DNA from: Geobacteraceae bacterium
GTDB taxonomy: Bacteria; Desulfobacterota; Desulfuromonadia; Desulfuromonadales; BM103
Assembly (NCBI GenBank): GCA_024641085.1
Contig: JAHEDT010000028.1
Coordinates: forward strand, 1 to 39,871
DNA: 39,871 bases
Reading direction: 5' to 3'
Part shown: positions 8,042 through 36,714 of the stretch, piece by piece
Numbering within the stretch: position 1 is the stretch's first letter
Layout: every line of letters begins with the position of its first letter
Notes under the pieces: model-generated
What the model was told of the DNA's origin: nothing
Database searches by the model: none
What the model saw: the letters and a program-made list of their open reading frames with translations, nothing else
Program-made: the position numbers and the translations under genes

Positions 8042-8767
8042 ATGTCCTACAGTAAATATTTCAACAAAGGCCAGAAAGTTTTCATCAAACGGATCTTCAC
8101 CGATGAGGAAAGAACCGCCCTGGACAGCATCACCGGCTATGCCATGCGCAGCCAGTCGATGCAGCTCGACCTGGCCCTCCCCTACGGTTGCGATGCTGCA
8201 GATTCCTACCCTTTTGAATCGGGAATGAAGTTTGAGATTTCGACCGACCACAAAGGAATGGGCCTGCGCCTGGTGGCCTCATTCAGCGATCGTATCAGCA
8301 GCCAGGATATCCGCCTGCAGTTCGAGGGGAACCTGGAGTTTATTTCGCGCCGGCTCTATAAACGGGTGGATGTCAACGCCTGGGTGGGGATTCAACGTGG
8401 CCAGGGCAACCTGGCGGAGATGCGCCGTCTCTGGGAGGAACATCTGCAGAAGATTAAATCAGGAGTCTCTGCCGCCGAGCTGACCGAATTCAAGAAACAC
8501 CTGGTCAACCTTGCCGGGGGCGGTTTGCGCCTGACGTTGCCGGCTCCGGTCGAGATGGCAGAGCGGGTCCTGGTCTACCTCTCGATCGGTGACAAGCAGG
8601 GGATCATCTGTGCACTGGCTGAAACGATCTGGGTCGACCAGGCCAAGGACGACGGCACACAGATGATCGGCCTGCGGTTCCTGAATATTCTCGAACAAGA
8701 CCAGGCCCGGATCGATGGGGTGGTCAAAATGCTGATTGATCGTCTGGGAGGCACCGGCGAAGCATGA
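8042..8767 (+). CDS. PilZ-domain protein (YcgR-like c-di-GMP receptor)
   Basis: A 241-residue protein with a C-terminal PilZ domain. The c-di-GMP-binding RxxxR motif is R104-LYK-R108. The second motif (D/N)x(S/A)xxG is N156-LAGG-G161, with Ala in the usual Ser position. The first 100 residues form a separate domain resembling the YcgR N-terminal fold, rich in beta strand and without membrane segments. It is the third gene of the set starting at 6487, 10 bp after the kinase-like gene. It most likely senses c-di-GMP to adjust motility or surface behaviour, but no flagellar or pilus gene lies nearby. Confidence 0.8.
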   Translation: MSYSKYFNKGQKVFIKRIFTDEERTALDSITGYAMRSQSMQLDLALPYGCDAADSYPFESGMKFEISTDHKGMGLRLVASFSDRISSQDIRLQFEGNLEFISRRLYKRVDVNAWVGIQRGQGNLAEMRRLWEEHLQKIKSGVSAAELTEFKKHLVNLAGGGLRLTLPAPVEMAERVLVYLSIGDKQGIICALAETIWVDQAKDDGTQMIGLRFLNILEQDQARIDGVVKMLIDRLGGTGEA

Positions 8768-30450: not shown

Positions 30451-31025
30451 TCATAAAGCGCATCAACCATGACGCGGGTCTGCACCAGCGGCCCGGAATT
30501 GTCGATCACGAAATCGGCCTTCTGCACCTTATCCGCCTGCGGCCATTGAGAGTTGATGCGTTGCCCCGCCTCTTCCGCGCTGAGGCGATCGCGCTGCTGC
30601 AATCGAGCCAACTGGGTGGCCGGGTCAACCACAATCACCAACACCAGATCGACCCGGCTCTCTGCCCCGGCCTCGAAAAGCAGAGGGGCTTCATAAACGA
30701 TCAGGTCATGGGGAGCCGCTTTCAATGAGGCCAGGCGGCAATCGGCCAGGTGGGCAATCGCCGGATGCGTGATCGACTCGAGACGTCGCCGGGCCGCGGG
30801 GTCAGCAAAAACCCTTTGCGCCAGGGCCTCACGATCGAGGCAGCCGCCAGGTGTCAGGATATCGTCACCAAAAACCTCGGCCAGCTTCATCAGCGTCGGA
30901 CTGCCTGGATTGACGACCTCCCGTGCGAGGAGGTCTGCGCTGACCAACAGGGCACCACACTCGACAAAAAAGTCGGCAACGGAACTTTTACCTGAGGCAA
31001 TGCCTCCAGTAAGGCCAAGAATCAT
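30408..31025 (-). CDS. coaE: Dephospho-CoA kinase CoaE
   Basis: Phosphorylates the 3'-OH of dephospho-CoA, the final step of CoA synthesis. The 205-residue product begins MILGLTGGIASGKSSVADFF with the P-loop at residues 7-14. It has LLVSADLLAREVV (substrate-binding Asp), HPAIAHL and VYEAPLLFEAG, followed by the lid region RLQQRDRLS. The start at 31023-31025 has AGGAGAAG upstream. The 3' end overlaps the esterase gene (convergent), and the 5' end abuts the acyl-CoA synthetase gene (divergent). Confidence 0.95.
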   Translation of the reverse strand: MILGLTGGIASGKSSVADFFVECGALLVSADLLAREVVNPGSPTLMKLAEVFGDDILTPGGCLDREALAQRVFADPAARRRLESITHPAIAHLADCRLASLKAAPHDLIVYEAPLLFEAGAESRVDLVLVIVVDPATQLARLQQRDRLSAEEAGQRINSQWPQADKVQKADFVIDNSGPLVQTRVMVDALYDYLTRTMAPGFSSS

Positions 31026-32901
31026 GGCAAAGACTTCTCCTGCAACCGATCGCGCTGCGCCCTGCTTGCCTGACACGATCCCACGCATGGTCCTCTCCGG
31101 AAAAGAGAGGTACGGTGGACATCCCATCTGCCGAACCAAATCCAGCGGCAAGTATCATGATATCACCTGGCCGGACTTTGCAAAAGGGCTCCATGACCAC
31201 GCCAGAGGTCTGCTGGCCGCTGGCTTCAGCCCTGGCGACCGGGCCGCCATCATGGCACCCAACGGACCGAACTGGGTCTGGGCGGATATCGCCATCCAGG
31301 CCTGTGGTGGCATCAGTGTGCCAGTCTACCATACGGAAAGTCTGACCAACACTCTCTATATCCTCAAAAATTCGACCTGCCGCACCCTGTTTATCTGGTC
31401 TCCCCTGATTGCCACCGAGCTATTGCAGCACCTTGAGGACCTGCCACAACTTGAGACCTTCATCTTGCTGCGAGGGGAATTGGACCACCGGCAGGTGGTT
31501 ATGTTAAAGGATTTTCTGATTGATGAAAATCCTGACCTGGACCGAGAGTTGATGCGGCGGCTTGACAGTGCCGGAGAAGAAGACCTGGCGTCAATCGTCT
31601 ATACCTCGGGGACCACCGGCCCCCCCAAGGGAGCCATGCTGACCCACCGCAACTTCCTCTCCAATGTCCGGGCATGTGCGCAGCTTTTCCAGCTTGGCCC
31701 GCAGGATTCCTGCTTGTCGTTCCTCCCTCTGTCCCACGTCTTCGAACGCATGGCTGGATATTACCTGATGATTCACCAGGGTGTGACCATCGCTTACGCC
31801 GAAAGCATCGATTCCCTACCGGTCAACCTGCTCGAGGTACAACCGACCGTGGTAATCAGCGTACCGCGGCTTTACGAAAAGGTGTATGCCCGGGTCATGG
31901 ACAAGGTGGTGTCAGGCCCGTGGCTCAAACGCAAAATCTTCTTTAGAATCCTGGACCTGTGTACAGTGCGCATTACCCGTGAACTGGCCCACCAGCCAGT
32001 CGCCCCGCTGCACAGGAAATTGACCGACATCCTGCGGAGCAGAATATTCGGCCGTCTGCGGACCTCCCTGGGCGGGCGCCTAAGGTTTTTCGTTTCCGGA
32101 GGCGCACCCCTGGCGCGTGACATCGCCGAGTTTTTCCTTGCAGTCGGGATACCGATCTACGAAGGCTACGGCCTGACCGAAACCTCGCCGGTCATCGCCG
32201 TCAATACACCCCGGGCTCAGCGTCCGGGGACTGTCGGGCAGGTCTTGCCAGGCACACAGGTTAAAATCGCTGCCGACGGAGAGATTCTGGTATCGGGGCC
32301 AGGGGTTTTCCAGGGTTACTGGGAGAGCCCGGAACAGACCCGCGAAGCCCTTCAGGGGGGCTGGTTTCACACCGGCGACATCGGCGAACTGGACGCCGAG
32401 GATTTTTTGGCGATCACCGATCGCAAGAAAGACCTGATCGTCACCGCCGGGGGTGAAAATGTTGCCCCGCAGATCCTGGAAAAGCTCTTGAAAACAGACA
32501 AGTTCATCGCCAACGCCCTGGTCTATGGCGATCGCCGGCCATTCCTGACCGCCCTGTTGGTTCCCAACTTTGACAACTTGAGCCGGTACGCCCATATTAA
32601 GAAGATCGATTTTCTGACTCATTGCGACCTGATCAACCATCCGCAGATTCTGGCATTGATGCGTCGCCGGGTGGAAGCTCTGCAGCACGGCCAGCCCGGG
32701 TTCATGCAGATCAAGCGCTTCACCTTGCTCTCGCGGGACTTCCTGGCAGAAAGCGGTGAGTTGACACAGACCATGAAAATCAAGCGTAAAGCGATCGCAA
32801 AAAAATTTCACCAGATCGTCGAGAGCATGTACATGCAACAGGATCACGGCATCCACGACCACGGTTTCTGCATTGTCGACGAACCGGATCATGGCAAGTG
32901 A
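31024..32901 (+). CDS. Long-chain acyl-CoA synthetase (AMP-forming)
   Basis: Activates a fatty acid with ATP and CoA. The 625-residue product (if started at 31024) has the AMP-binding motif SIVYTSGTTGPPKGAMLTH, FLPLSHVFERMAG, the A5 motif YEGYGLTETSPVIAVNTP, and GWFHTGDIGELD with ITDRKKDLIVTAGGENVAPQ. The catalytic C-terminal Lys is in QTMKIKRKAIAKKF. The usual N-terminal pattern begins at TIPRM, so the start must be at or before the TTG at 31066. The ATG at 31024 is the nearest ATG upstream and shares CATG with the coaE start. The ATG at 31087 would cut the family N-terminus. Confidence 0.9.
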   Translation: MAKTSPATDRAAPCLPDTIPRMVLSGKERYGGHPICRTKSSGKYHDITWPDFAKGLHDHARGLLAAGFSPGDRAAIMAPNGPNWVWADIAIQACGGISVPVYHTESLTNTLYILKNSTCRTLFIWSPLIATELLQHLEDLPQLETFILLRGELDHRQVVMLKDFLIDENPDLDRELMRRLDSAGEEDLASIVYTSGTTGPPKGAMLTHRNFLSNVRACAQLFQLGPQDSCLSFLPLSHVFERMAGYYLMIHQGVTIAYAESIDSLPVNLLEVQPTVVISVPRLYEKVYARVMDKVVSGPWLKRKIFFRILDLCTVRITRELAHQPVAPLHRKLTDILRSRIFGRLRTSLGGRLRFFVSGGAPLARDIAEFFLAVGIPIYEGYGLTETSPVIAVNTPRAQRPGTVGQVLPGTQVKIAADGEILVSGPGVFQGYWESPEQTREALQGGWFHTGDIGELDAEDFLAITDRKKDLIVTAGGENVAPQILEKLLKTDKFIANALVYGDRRPFLTALLVPNFDNLSRYAHIKKIDFLTHCDLINHPQILALMRRRVEALQHGQPGFMQIKRFTLLSRDFLAESGELTQTMKIKRKAIAKKFHQIVESMYMQQDHGIHDHGFCIVDEPDHGK

Positions 32902-33005: not shown

Positions 33006-34604
33006 ATGCAAAGTGCAGGCACCGGGAACCAGGACATGCAGAATTCCAGCGTACGCCATAATCAGATTGCAGCCGCCCTCATCGGGGTCGTCAAGCAGAT
33101 CAAGGCCATCAAATACTATCCCCTTGATCACCCGGCGCTCAAGGCCGCGGCCGCGGAAAGCCTGCGTGGCTTTGCGCCGGTCCTCGCCGATGAATCTCAG
33201 CTGGCCCTGACTGTGCGTAAAGAAGGCTTCCTGCTTGACAACGGCCCGGTTGCCAAGAGCAATCAGGTCCTCGTACAGCTTGCCAACTTCTGTTTCGCCC
33301 GGCGAATCCAGCACCTGACATTTCTGGCCGACCTCAACAGCGCTGACCTGCACCACTTTGTTCACTTTCTGCTGCTCGATCCACAAATTATCCAGAAACA
33401 GGGAGGCTTCCAGGTGATCCTGGAGAAAGCCCGGATAACCACGATCTGGACCAACATTCGCGACCTTGACGAGATTCTGCAGCGCAAGCATACGATTGAA
33501 AACCTGCCCGAGGAGCCGAACTTCGATCCTGCCAAGATCCTGAACGAAGTCAAAGAAGACACACAGGGCGATCAGGCTGAGGCCCTGGATTTGGCGGCCC
33601 TGGTTGCCAAGCTTGAAAAGGAGGAGGACGATACCCGCTTCCACCATTTATTGCAGGAACTGATCCCTCTGCTGCGTCTGCAACTCATAGAGGACCGCCG
33701 TGCATTGGTGCTGCGCGCCTTGCTGCTGCTTTGTCGCTGTGCCACCGGCAAGCAGTATTCTCTGGAACGCAGGCGAAACGCCCAGCTGGCCATTGACCAG
33801 TTGGCCACCGATGAAATGGCCAACTACCTGGTCGCCTACCTGTTCGCAACAGCCTCGGAGCAGGGGATCCGCGACATCCTGGGCAAGATTCTCGCTTTTA
33901 TGGGAGACAGGATTGGCCGTCGTTTGATGGAAATGCTGGCCGATGAGCGCATGAGCGGCAAGCGCAAGGTCCTGGGCAATATTCTGGTGCGCAGCGGCGC
34001 CACGGCCCTGCCGATCCTCTATGAATACCTCGCCGATGAGCGCTGGTACGTGGTGCGCAACGCGGTCGCGATTCTGGGTGACATCCGTAATCAGGAGGCC
34101 CTGAGCCACTTGACGCCACTGCTGCAACACGATGAAATCCGCGTTCGCCGAGAAGCGATTCGCGCCCTGACCAAAATCAGCGGCCAGCGGGCGGTCAACA
34201 TTTTGCTGCAGGTTGCTGTCAACCATGATCATGATACACAACGCCAGGCAATCCTTTCGCTGGGAGCCGTGCGTGCGACCATTGCCGTACCGACCCTGCT
34301 GGCGCTCCTCAAGAAATCGGATTGGAGTCAGCGCGCTATCGACCTGAAAAAAGACGCTATCCGAGCCCTCGGCGAAATTCGTGACCCTGCTGCGACTGCC
34401 GAGTTAGTCAGAATTGTCGGCAATAAGCGCTGGCTGCGCCGCAAGCTCAATGACGAATTGCGCATCGCCGCCGCCACCGCCCTTGGCGACATGGGTGAGC
34501 AGAGCACGCTCAAGGTGCTTGAGAAAGTCACCCACGACCGCACTGCAGCGGTCGCCCGGGCTGCAGCCCAGGCCATCAAACAGCTGGACAAGGCGAAACC
34601 ATGA
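33006..34604 (+). CDS. HEAT-repeat protein with novel N-terminal domain shared with the HD-GYP neighbour
   Basis: A 532-residue protein with no catalytic motif. Residues about 20-130 form a domain with IKYYPLDHPALK, RKEGFLLDNGPV and a helical stretch FLADLNSADLHHFVHFLL, which resembles the N-terminus of the next protein. A charged linker follows, then HEAT-type helical repeats from about residue 220 to the end (e.g. RWYVVRNAVAILGDI and DEIRVRREAIRALTKI). It is probably a cytoplasmic protein-binding scaffold. The start may be ATG 33006 or ATG 33036; neither ribosome site is strong. The stop overlaps the HD-GYP start by 4 bp (ATGA), so the two are coupled. Confidence 0.8.
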   Translation: MQSAGTGNQDMQNSSVRHNQIAAALIGVVKQIKAIKYYPLDHPALKAAAAESLRGFAPVLADESQLALTVRKEGFLLDNGPVAKSNQVLVQLANFCFARRIQHLTFLADLNSADLHHFVHFLLLDPQIIQKQGGFQVILEKARITTIWTNIRDLDEILQRKHTIENLPEEPNFDPAKILNEVKEDTQGDQAEALDLAALVAKLEKEEDDTRFHHLLQELIPLLRLQLIEDRRALVLRALLLLCRCATGKQYSLERRRNAQLAIDQLATDEMANYLVAYLFATASEQGIRDILGKILAFMGDRIGRRLMEMLADERMSGKRKVLGNILVRSGATALPILYEYLADERWYVVRNAVAILGDIRNQEALSHLTPLLQHDEIRVRREAIRALTKISGQRAVNILLQVAVNHDHDTQRQAILSLGAVRATIAVPTLLALLKKSDWSQRAIDLKKDAIRALGEIRDPAATAELVRIVGNKRWLRRKLNDELRIAAATALGDMGEQSTLKVLEKVTHDRTAAVARAAAQAIKQLDKAKP

Positions 34605-35941
34605 ACGTTGACGAGATCAAACAGGTCGTTCAGGTCCTGGCGGCTGCCATCAAGGGACTGCGGCTATACGCTGTTGAACACCCGGCGACGACCAAGCAGG
34701 TTGAAGCCCTGCAGAATGGCCTGTTTAGCCTGCTGCATCACAAGAAGAAAATCAAAATGGGGATTCTCGAGGGGACGCTATTCGTTGAAGACCATCTCTT
34801 CATGCAGGAGTTCCCGGCCGCCACTGAACTTGCCAAGCTGCTTGAGTCCCGCGAACTGCTCGGCATCGAATTCACGGCAGGGCTCTCCGCCGGGGAGATT
34901 CATACGCTTCTGTACCTGATCCACTCCAGTGACACGAAAGGACAGGACTTCGCCGACTCACTGGTGTCACAAGGGGTGAAAAGGATTCGCGCCGTAGCCG
35001 CTGAAGATGATGATGACAACGACCAGAAGCCACGTAAGGTGTATCGCAAGGCTCTTAAGGTTGTTGACCAGATCTTCCACGATGTGCGCATGGGCGAGAT
35101 CCCCTCGTCGGCCGAAGCGATCAAGGTCGTCAAAAGCATGGCCCAGTTGACCATCAACGAGCCGCACGCCATGCTGGCCCTGTCGATGCTCAAGGATTAT
35201 GACAACTACACCTTCACTCACTCAGTGAATGTTTCGGTAATTTCCCTCGCCGTCGGCCGTGCCTGCAATGTCACCGATGAGCAGTTGAAAACCCTCGGTC
35301 TGGGCGGCCTGCTGCACGATCTCGGCAAGCTGCGCGTCGATGTCAACATCATCACCAAGCCGGGGCGTTTGACCGAAGAAGAATTCGAAGCGATCAAGGA
35401 ACATCCCGGTTTCGGCGCCAACATCATTCAAGAGATGGAAGATGTCACCCCCGAAATCATGCAGATCGTTCTTGGCCATCACCTGCGTTACGATCGCAGC
35501 GGCTACCCGGCCGACCGTGCCGGCGAAATCGTCTCGCCACTGGTTGAGATGGCCGCCATTGCCGATGCCTATGATGCCATGACCACCCTGCGCTCCTACC
35601 AGCGTCCCTTCACACCACGCAAGGCGATCAACCGGCTCAGGGAAATCGCCGGGTCTTTTCTGCATCCTGGATATGTCGGGCTCTTCATCGACTCGCTGGG
35701 GGCCTACCCGGTGGGCAGTCTGGTTCGCCTCGACAACAATACCATCGCGCTGGTCACCAAGGTCGACACCCGGGACACCAGCATGGTCGACCTCAAGGTA
35801 CTCTTCAATCCCGCCGGAAAACTCCTCGAAGAGCCGTACATGCTTGAGCTGCGCCCCAACCAGCCTCGCCGCATTGTTGCCGAGGTTGACCCGCAAACCA
35901 AGGGGCTTGACGTCACCGACTTTTTCGACCTGGGACCTTGA
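34601..35941 (+). CDS. HD-GYP domain protein, probable c-di-GMP phosphodiesterase
   Basis: A 446-residue protein. Residues 1-110 are the domain shared with the HEAT neighbour (GLRLYAVEHPAT, GILEGTLFVEDHLF, FTAGLSAGEIHTLLYL). An acidic linker (EDDDDND) follows. The HD-GYP domain, about 195-385, retains H207, H239-D240 (LLHDLGK), HH at 293-294 and GYP at 301-303 (HHLRYDRSGYP), so it should hydrolyse c-di-GMP. There is no membrane segment or receiver domain, so its input is probably the N-terminal domain or the HEAT protein. A C-terminal region (Leu/Val-rich, residues 360-446) is typical of this family. Confidence 0.9.
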   Translation: MNVDEIKQVVQVLAAAIKGLRLYAVEHPATTKQVEALQNGLFSLLHHKKKIKMGILEGTLFVEDHLFMQEFPAATELAKLLESRELLGIEFTAGLSAGEIHTLLYLIHSSDTKGQDFADSLVSQGVKRIRAVAAEDDDDNDQKPRKVYRKALKVVDQIFHDVRMGEIPSSAEAIKVVKSMAQLTINEPHAMLALSMLKDYDNYTFTHSVNVSVISLAVGRACNVTDEQLKTLGLGGLLHDLGKLRVDVNIITKPGRLTEEEFEAIKEHPGFGANIIQEMEDVTPEIMQIVLGHHLRYDRSGYPADRAGEIVSPLVEMAAIADAYDAMTTLRSYQRPFTPRKAINRLREIAGSFLHPGYVGLFIDSLGAYPVGSLVRLDNNTIALVTKVDTRDTSMVDLKVLFNPAGKLLEEPYMLELRPNQPRRIVAEVDPQTKGLDVTDFFDLGP

Positions 35942-35962
35942 TGACAACCCCGTGAAAAAGCA

Positions 35963-35988
35963 AAAGGCCGGAAATTATTCCGGCCTTT
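35963..35988. terminator. Bidirectional terminator between the HD-GYP and HEAT genes
   Basis: A perfect 11-bp stem (AAAGGCCGGAA with TTCCGGCCTTT) and a 4-nt loop lie 21 bp after the HD-GYP stop. T-rich stretches follow on both strands (TTTCG on plus; TTTTGCTTTTTC on minus), so it can end both convergent transcripts. Confidence 0.85.
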
Positions 35989-36060
35989 CGTCATATTGTC
36001 CGGTCTTTACGCCAGAACCTTGGCGGCGGACTTCCCAAAAGCAGCCCTGGACAAATCGGC

Positions 36061-36636
36061 CTAGCCCTTGAGGGGCAACTTGCTGAAGGCCTCTACGGCA
36101 GCAACCCGAACCGTTGTCCGGCGATCCCTGGTCAGTTTCGCCAGAGGGGCGACGCTGTCGGGAGCGCCGAGCAAGCCGAGCGAACGTGCGGCACTGACCA
36201 CCAGCTGTTCATCAGCGTCTTCCAGAAGAGAGATCAGGTAAGGGGCCAGGCGCACATCACTGAAATGACCGAGCGCCTCGGCGGTGTGCACGCGTACCGC
36301 AGGCGATGGATCCTTGAGATGCTTGACCAGGCTGTTGAGGGACTTCGGGTGGGCCTTGGCGCCCAGGACCTGGATCGCAGCCCCTCGGATATCGGCATCG
36401 GGATCCTTGAGCAGGTTGATCAGGTGAGGGAAGACTTCCGCGGACTGGATGTTCTCCATGGCGTAGATCGCCTTGACCCGCTGGCCGCGTTTTTCGGACT
36501 TGAGATCGCTGATGACCTGTTCCAGGTCCTGGAGCGACTCGAGGCGTTCGAGAGCCGCCGCGGCGGCAGCGCAAACCGACTCCTCGGAATCGCTCAGCAA
36601 TTCAATGAGCAGGCTGCGTCTTTGCTCGAGAGTCAT
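36061..36636 (-). CDS. Small HEAT-repeat protein (PBS-lyase-like repeats)
   Basis: A 191-residue all-helical protein of about six HEAT-type repeats, each with a D-x-x-x-x-R-x-x-A-x-x-A-L pattern: DPDADIRGAAIQVLGA, DPSPAVRVHTAEALGHF, DADEQLVVSAARSLGLL and DRRTTVRVAAVEAFSKL. There is no signal peptide or enzyme motif. I prefer the ATG at 36634-36636 (MTLEQRRS) because GGGGA lies just before it; a GTG at 36651 and an ATG at 36648 are also possible. It is convergent with the HD-GYP gene and sits after ssb on the same strand, from which it is separated by a terminator. Confidence 0.85.
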   Translation of the reverse strand: MTLEQRRSLLIELLSDSEESVCAAAAAALERLESLQDLEQVISDLKSEKRGQRVKAIYAMENIQSAEVFPHLINLLKDPDADIRGAAIQVLGAKAHPKSLNSLVKHLKDPSPAVRVHTAEALGHFSDVRLAPYLISLLEDADEQLVVSAARSLGLLGAPDSVAPLAKLTRDRRTTVRVAAVEAFSKLPLKG

Positions 36637-36714
36637 GAGATTCCCCATCACGTTAAATCAACAGCACCAAAGTTATCAGAAACAAGGGGTCTGCGCAAAC
36701 AGGAAAAGACAGGG

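Follow-up and report, generated by a model that had tools for sequence, protein, structure and literature searches.

The 39,871-nucleotide stretch of DNA analysed here (contig JAHEDT010000028.1 of a Geobacteraceae bacterium, hereafter the window) carries two adjacent genes whose products begin with similar N-terminal regions. The first encodes a HEAT-repeat protein of 522 amino acids (positions 33036 to 34604, + strand) and the second an HD-GYP protein of 446 amino acids (34601 to 35941, + strand), whose start codon overlaps the HEAT stop codon in the sequence ATGA. Both reading frames are open at these places. The HEAT gene has three alternative starts, GTG 33003, ATG 33006 and ATG 33036, and the position of the last is that of the first open reading frame (ORF) start in 5 of the 6 relatives fetched.

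The HEAT protein is made of an N-terminal domain (33036 to 33470, +; residues 1–145, with YYPLDHPA at residues 27–34), a linker and a HEAT solenoid spanning approximately 33954 to 34604 (+). The solenoid was matched by Pfam HEAT_2 in 5 stretches (129.6 bits for a cut-off of 27.7, best at residues 326–398) and also by structure. The HD-GYP protein starts with its own N-terminal domain (34601 to 35014, +; residues 1–138, with LYAVEHPA at residues 22–29), followed by the catalytic domain (35186 to 35656, +), which was matched by HD_5 (74.4 bits for a cut-off of 27.2) and contains the metal ligands and the GYP residues 301–303. The six named relatives of the HEAT protein came from Geobacteraceae, Desulfuromonadales or deltaproteobacterial metagenome genomes, the best with 85% identity over the whole protein.

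The N-terminal domain of the two proteins

The original prediction held that the two proteins begin with a common, undescribed domain recognizable by three landmarks: a Tyr/His-Pro-Ala segment, an EG turn and a helical stretch. Single-pair BLASTP of the two N-termini gave no significant match (expectation value, E, of 31); the eye of that first reading thus outdid pairwise alignment. When each N-terminus was searched against its own genome, it recovered that of its partner in register, weakly (E 0.066 and 0.02), together with two further copies of the domain on contig C18. A profile comparison of the two N-termini, set beforehand as the check on the prediction, found significant similarity. 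With profiles of close relatives (7 versus 6 sequences) E was 5.1e-5 for a probability of only 67, and with diverse profiles (35 versus 34 sequences, hhalign) the comparison reached E 5.9e-16, probability 98.6, over 131 columns. Two of the predicted landmarks, YxxxHPA and the C-terminal helix (LNSADLHHFVHFL / LSAGEIHTLLYLI), came out in exact register here, the EG turns being offset by one residue. The HEAT-side profile alone also picked up frames of about 395–530 amino acids in other genomes (E 2.9e-8 to 0.01, the best in G007), many of them directly behind a HEAT gene, and these were HD-GYP genes wherever their locus was read. In an alignment of 55 copies of both kinds (A5), the Tyr and His of the motif YPxxHP were the only invariant residues, both prolines being nearly so. 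As judged by these profiles, the HEAT and HD-GYP proteins share an N-terminal domain of about 130 residues.

We then looked for this domain among known families and folds. Pfam returned no family at E up to 1 for either window copy, and among relatives no family matched more than 1 of 35 sequences on the HEAT side or more than 2 of 34 on the HD side (PSD5, best E 0.096). Two scattered matches, DUF3783 (E 0.0031) and DprA_WH (E 0.0033), concerned one member each and were rejected. Matches to sequences of the Protein Data Bank (PDB) were found for 53 residues of the HD-side profile (4zv6_B, E 2.3e-4) and for 29 residues of the HEAT side (9l08_A, E 0.025), two further matches being weaker; we judged them to be chance matches, since they were short and differed between the two sides. 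4zv6_B is Octarellin V.1, a designed protein.

AlphaFold2 gave a confident model of the HD-side domain from 13 sequences, with a predicted local distance difference test (pLDDT) of 86.4 and a predicted template modelling score (pTM) of 0.79. The model starts with two helices that meet in a turn at the Tyr/His motif and continues with three strands, a helix, a strand, two helices and a strand. Searches with this model gave a best E of only 0.58 in the PDB by Foldseek, a best Z of 3.8 among the 966 chains aligned by VIA-align and a best E of 0.23 in a viral structure library. Such a lack of match to a predicted model does not prove that the fold is new. The model of the full HEAT protein had a good solenoid and a poor N-terminal domain (mean pLDDT 69, 6 near-identical sequences); the order of its helices and first strands agreed with the HD-side model, but because two strands were missing we did not count it as structural confirmation. 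As neither the sequence searches of Pfam and the PDB nor the fold searches gave a match that we could trust, the domain appears to be undescribed.

Conservation and duplication of the gene pair

The HEAT-side profile matched 101 of the 118 genomes of the order (E up to 0.01). The HD-side profile was applied to five of the 17 genomes without a match and revealed the domain in each, in four of them (G038, G068, G072 and G105) as adjacent frames of the long pair type described below. With a combined profile, and at most ten candidates scored per genome, the domain was found in at least 157 of the 395 genomes of the phylum (E up to 1e-3). Plasmid records gave one weak match.

We read 79 distinct loci (L156 being a re-reading of L077). 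A domain-bearing ORF of more than 300 amino acids other than HD-GYP was present in 74; one of these (L135) encodes a histidine kinase, which leaves 73 HEAT genes. Directly downstream, on the same strand, lay an HD-GYP ORF in 66 of the 73, a fraction inflated in the phylum set because part of it was picked with both matches already listed, and a decayed HD-GYP remnant in one (L077/L156, genome G049). In the least selected subset, 36 loci of the order picked by the HEAT match, an HD-GYP gene followed in 33, the three others showing a contig end, the remnant and no partner. The N-terminal domain was recognizable in 63 of the 66 HD-GYP partners. By first-start calling, the two ORFs overlapped in 52 of 67 pairs, and by exactly 4 bases in 21 of 67. 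The other five of the 79 loci were L058, where the HEAT gene in front of HD-GYP is split, L062, which lies at a contig end, L136 and L155, where HD-GYP was read without a HEAT gene, and L137, where the HEAT gene is cut by the stretch read.

Two of these loci deserve a word of description. In G049 the remnant (L156:7547-7876) is the C-terminal part of an HD-GYP gene behind an intact HEAT gene. In the single-contig genome G013 the HEAT gene (L058:4350-6013) appears as two ORFs of 219 and 326 amino acids, which may reflect an interrupted gene or a sequence error.

The pairs fell roughly into two types, one with a HEAT protein of about 515–690 and an HD-GYP protein of about 430–500 amino acids, and a second, long type with about 690–875 and 360–480 amino acids, respectively. 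The genome of the window holds one pair of each type, the second and diverged pair being located on C18 with a 4-base overlap. Three genomes (G063, G080 and G088, the first two of one genus) carry a tandem HEAT-HD-HEAT-HD duplication of the second type. The pair is thus conserved beyond this genome, across genomes of the order and of the phylum, as had been proposed for checking. Order, overlap, the second pair in the genome and duplication of the pair in tandem together give good support to the predicted two-part module; a role of this domain in pairing or sensing is the inferred part of the prediction.

A tree of 144 domains, drawn from 201 copies after fragments and repeats had been dropped, required 4 changes of the HEAT/HD label, HEAT-borne and HD-borne copies being mostly apart. 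Scored with four groups it required 9 changes, compared with a mean of 71.4 after shuffling, and none of 200 shuffles was as low. In a FastTree of all 201 copies, both pair types occurred on each of the two sides. The two N-terminal domains probably descend from one ancestral domain, and the simplest reading of the trees would be a single old duplication into HEAT-borne and HD-borne copies before the two pair types split.

Catalytic residues and genomic neighbours

The catalytic side was studied on 72 HD-GYP proteins, of which 70 were encoded in loci that had been read and the other two in the window and on C18. The best PDB sequence match of the window protein was PmGH (E 3.1e-22), an HD_5 (PF13487) enzyme of known structure (4MCW/4MDZ/4ME4), which it resembles in the catalytic domain, the GYP residues and seven of the eight metal ligands. 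These seven (H, HD, H, HH, D), which the two HD-GYP subgroups share, were invariant in 72/72 proteins and correspond to H207, H239, D240, H268, H293, H294 and D322. The position of the eighth, E185 of PmGH, was occupied by Tyr in 71 proteins (Y203 in the window) and by Leu in one. Lys243 (K225 of PmGH, the Lys of HDxGK) was present in 72/72, Asp201 (D183) in 71 and Asp325 (D308) in 70; of the GYP residues, Y and P were found in all 72 and G in 71. The strict signature HHExxDGxGYP is not that of the window protein. Its Glu was absent from 72/72 proteins, where L, M, I, V, T, A or Q stood instead, and the DG before xGYP is DR in the window, R or L being commonest in the long type and G present in about half of the short type. 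The HD-GYP domain, predicted to be intact, is therefore so with respect to seven of the eight PmGH ligands but not with respect to the strict signature.

A subgroup of HD-GYP proteins that shares the seven ligands and carries Tyr or Phe where PmGH has E185 has been described (PMC4159591), with motifs such as Y-T-Y or F-T-F at a position that reads mostly Y-T-F here. By its sequence the window protein belongs to this Y/F, seven-ligand subgroup. Since the seven ligands are kept, this subgroup is described and the E185A mutant of PmGH keeps reduced activity (PMC4159591), phosphodiesterase activity is expected, and the HD-GYP protein is probably a soluble, active phosphodiesterase.

The same genome (G000, 3.5 Mb) gave 11 GGDEF, 5 HD_5 and 18 PilZ matches, as well as at least 9 matches over gathering score to the riboswitch class for cyclic di-GMP (c-di-GMP-I; 150 of 287 candidates scored), including C141:14026-14113 and C141:16365-16504. 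These matches indicate a cyclic-dinucleotide network in this genome. The c-di-GMP-I class includes sensors of cyclic GMP-AMP (cGAMP) in Geobacter.

Around the pair, a small convergent gene (36061 to 36651, − strand) encodes a HEAT-repeat protein of 196 amino acids and is a frequent third gene of the block. Between the convergent genes lies a 13-pair hairpin (35961 to 35990, listed on the − strand by the scan), a possible transcription terminator; hairpin-type matches were no commoner in this stretch than in shuffles. An acyl-CoA ligase-like ORF (30769 to 32901, +) lies upstream of the HEAT gene on the same strand, and a gene resembling that of the single-stranded DNA-binding protein (SSB) lies beyond the small HEAT gene, downstream of the pair; both names were assigned by eye. 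Elsewhere in the window, a PilZ-domain protein (frame of 243 amino acids) was noted at 8471 to 8716 (+).

In 31 of the 36 order loci, all of them among the 33 with HD-GYP, a relative of the small HEAT gene adjoined the pair. We compared 16 genomes, 14 of them of family f8: an orthologue of the small gene was present in 10 of the 11 with an HD-GYP gene of the first type (the exception being G109) and in 0 of the 5 without, three of which are of one genus, giving a Fisher p of 0.0014 computed ignoring kinship. G049 and G063 have kept the HEAT gene but lost the small gene as well as the HD-GYP gene, of which G049 still shows a remnant. This joint loss is real in the genomes tested. In G057, G080, G099 and G113 the small gene is set apart from the pair by other DNA, at a distance of no more than about 5 kb. 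Given that the two lie so close in the cases read, a single deletion could explain the joint loss. Acyl-CoA ligase and SSB genes are also often near the pair within the order; in 20 of the 36 order loci the roughly 1 kb read upstream contained a relative of the ligase. The phylum loci read, L117-L155, retain the pair but show no ligase or SSB match. As a further observation, the second-type pairs of family f8 (L083, L154 and L167-L169) stand, by eye, before an ABC ATPase-like gene whose first residues are alike in all five loci.

The domain was also found outside the pair. In the class of genome G313 it occurred in 8 of 145 genomes (L135:2787-5156, − strand, and L186-L194, of which L193 and L194 lay outside the architecture scan). 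Among the eight domain-bearing ORFs scanned there, seven were histidine kinases with HisKA and HATPase_c preceded by PAS or GAF, and the eighth showed PAS only. The profile of the kinase-borne domain matched the HEAT-side profile with E 2.1e-14 and the HD-side profile with E 1.2e-20. In L189 the domain-bearing kinase gene lies directly behind a GAF-HisKA-HATPase gene, and the same gene spacing was seen in L135, L188 and L193. A match between the kinase stretch separating the N-terminal domain from PAS and the middle of the long HEAT protein (probability 36, E 4e-4) was not accepted. Two other domain-bearing ORFs, L199:2186-4402 (−, 739 amino acids) and L200:1829-4054 (+, 742 amino acids), had no Pfam match at E 0.001, meaning that more domain architectures may exist. 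The domain thus heads histidine kinases in another class, pointing to a portable input or assembly module of signalling proteins.

Possible function of the pair and relation to known systems

We propose that the HEAT and HD-GYP proteins, coupled in their translation, would together regulate the turnover of cyclic dinucleotides. In this scheme the HD-GYP protein would degrade a cyclic dinucleotide, presumably c-di-GMP, and the HEAT protein would be a dedicated adaptor that binds the enzyme, its HEAT surface linking the enzyme to a target or switching it. The homologous N-terminal domains would serve to assemble the two proteins, a heterodimer being the simplest arrangement. For this adaptor and phosphodiesterase joined by their N-terminal domains we see an even chance of being right; our confidence in the shared domain and in the gene pair as a unit is far higher than in the whole mechanism.

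Several observations weigh against this proposal or against the simple history of the domain given above. No HD-GYP gene lies beside the HEAT gene in six of the 73 domain-bearing loci, 3 of the 66 HD-GYP partners (L143, L144 and L147) have no recognizable N-terminal domain, and two HD-GYP genes that do bear the domain (L136 and L155) were seen without a HEAT gene in the DNA read. The His of the motif is missing from at least one copy outside A5 (L146, LYPPTSP). The domain also occurs beyond the pair, and its presence on kinases suits a sensory or targeting role equally well. In a FastTree of all 201 copies, the HEAT side contained 92 HEAT and 2 HD copies and the HD side 81 HD and 11 HEAT copies, 15 being unassigned; the tree of 144 domains is itself poorly resolved, with 72 of 141 inner branches open. 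The HEAT/HD exceptions in these trees may be real. Finally, the distance correlation of the two N-terminal domains was 0.69, the lowest of ten part-by-part values, the others ranging from 0.71 to 0.87 (35 loci), and with SSB as a control it was again the lowest (0.54 versus 0.58–0.80, 18 loci). An apparent excess seen with 16 loci had used fragmentary domain matches and vanished at 35 loci. These correlations therefore provide no evidence for direct contact.

The strongest rival explanation is that the N-terminal domain would be a soluble sensory input for a ligand or metabolite, both proteins reading one signal without touching, and that the gene pairing would reflect the common signal and co-expression. 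In its favour are the presence of the domain at the N-terminus of PAS- and GAF-containing histidine kinases of another class and the invariance of Tyr and His in the A5 copies. Yet in the model this motif, whose His L146 does without, occupies a turn between helices and may be structural, the structure searches (best E 0.58, Z 3.8) matched no known ligand-binding fold, and gene pairing, codon overlap and tandem co-duplication favour a stoichiometric complex. We hold this explanation to be possible and short of probable. That the two genes are ordinary co-transcribed neighbours, their shared domain being an ancestral relic without common function, we consider improbable. The N-terminal correlation is indeed no stronger than that of other linked parts, and the ligase and SSB genes are also frequent neighbours within the order; but in the phylum loci those neighbours are lost while the pair is kept, two diverged pair types occur in different contexts, and the pair duplicates as a unit.

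A different objection concerns the enzyme, whose substrate in the cell might be 3',3'-cGAMP or some other nucleotide in place of c-di-GMP, or which might be a receptor that binds the dinucleotide without cleaving it, with the HEAT protein as output. The absence of the HHE Glu from all 72 proteins, Tyr at the E185 position in 71 of them and the riboswitch matches in the genome (at least 9) could all be read this way, and DvhD is a non-catalytic HD-GYP receptor of a sulfate reducer (PMC13090378). However, DvhD no longer has the HD and HH residues (PMC13090378), unlike the proteins studied here, which retain the seven ligands and Lys243 in every case and Asp201 and Asp325 in nearly every case; moreover, a seven-ligand Y/F subgroup has been described (PMC4159591). 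This objection we judge rather unlikely to hold. Beyond the adaptor-enzyme proposal itself, we tentatively consider that a new signalling domain, perhaps with a new fold, could be a heteromeric assembly hub in this phylum, coupling HEAT scaffolds to HD-GYP enzymes, with the small HEAT protein as a further subunit, and having moved onto histidine kinases in another class; that one deletion could account for the joint loss makes this reading slightly less likely.

The two proteins resemble several known systems in part. PmGH has a GAF input domain and E185 (PMC4159591); in the window protein the input domain is unannotated, Tyr replaces E185 and HH is not followed by Glu, and its gene is paired with a HEAT gene. 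The description of the Y/F subgroup, in the available part of PMC4159591, mentions neither a HEAT partner nor a shared N-terminal domain. DvhD of Desulfovibrio vulgaris is likewise an HD-GYP-type protein of c-di-GMP signalling in a sulfate reducer, but it is a receptor with a transmembrane part, dCache and PAS and with its catalytic motifs lost (PMC13090378), whereas the window protein has none of these three parts and keeps its ligands. Proteins of the HEAT_2 or PBS-lyase type are like the C-terminal half of the HEAT protein and like the small convergent protein; the HEAT protein is set apart from them by its N-terminal domain ahead of the solenoid and its usual HD-GYP neighbour. In RpfG of Xanthomonas the input is a receiver domain. 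RpfG is also an HD-GYP enzyme with a regulatory protein-protein interaction, but its partner is a GGDEF protein and the complex needs GYP (PMC4159591); here the proposed partner is a HEAT protein. Among the open-access papers searched, mostly at the level of abstracts and including parts of PMC6456294, PMC8835794, PMC12607878, PMC4159591 and PMC13090378, we found no description of the pair or of the domain. While enzyme and repeats belong to familiar classes, the shared domain, its occurrence on kinases and the usual gene pairing seem to be undescribed.

A domain borne by three kinds of output, a scaffold, a phosphodiesterase and a histidine kinase, and absent from Pfam merits a family entry and a structure. 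If the assembly-hub reading were true, it would reveal an undescribed local c-di-GMP module in this phylum. A fixed adaptor-enzyme gene pair whose two partners begin with homologous domains would offer a tractable case, in metal- and sulfate-reducing bacteria, for studying how single phosphodiesterases act locally where many cyclic-dinucleotide enzymes are present.

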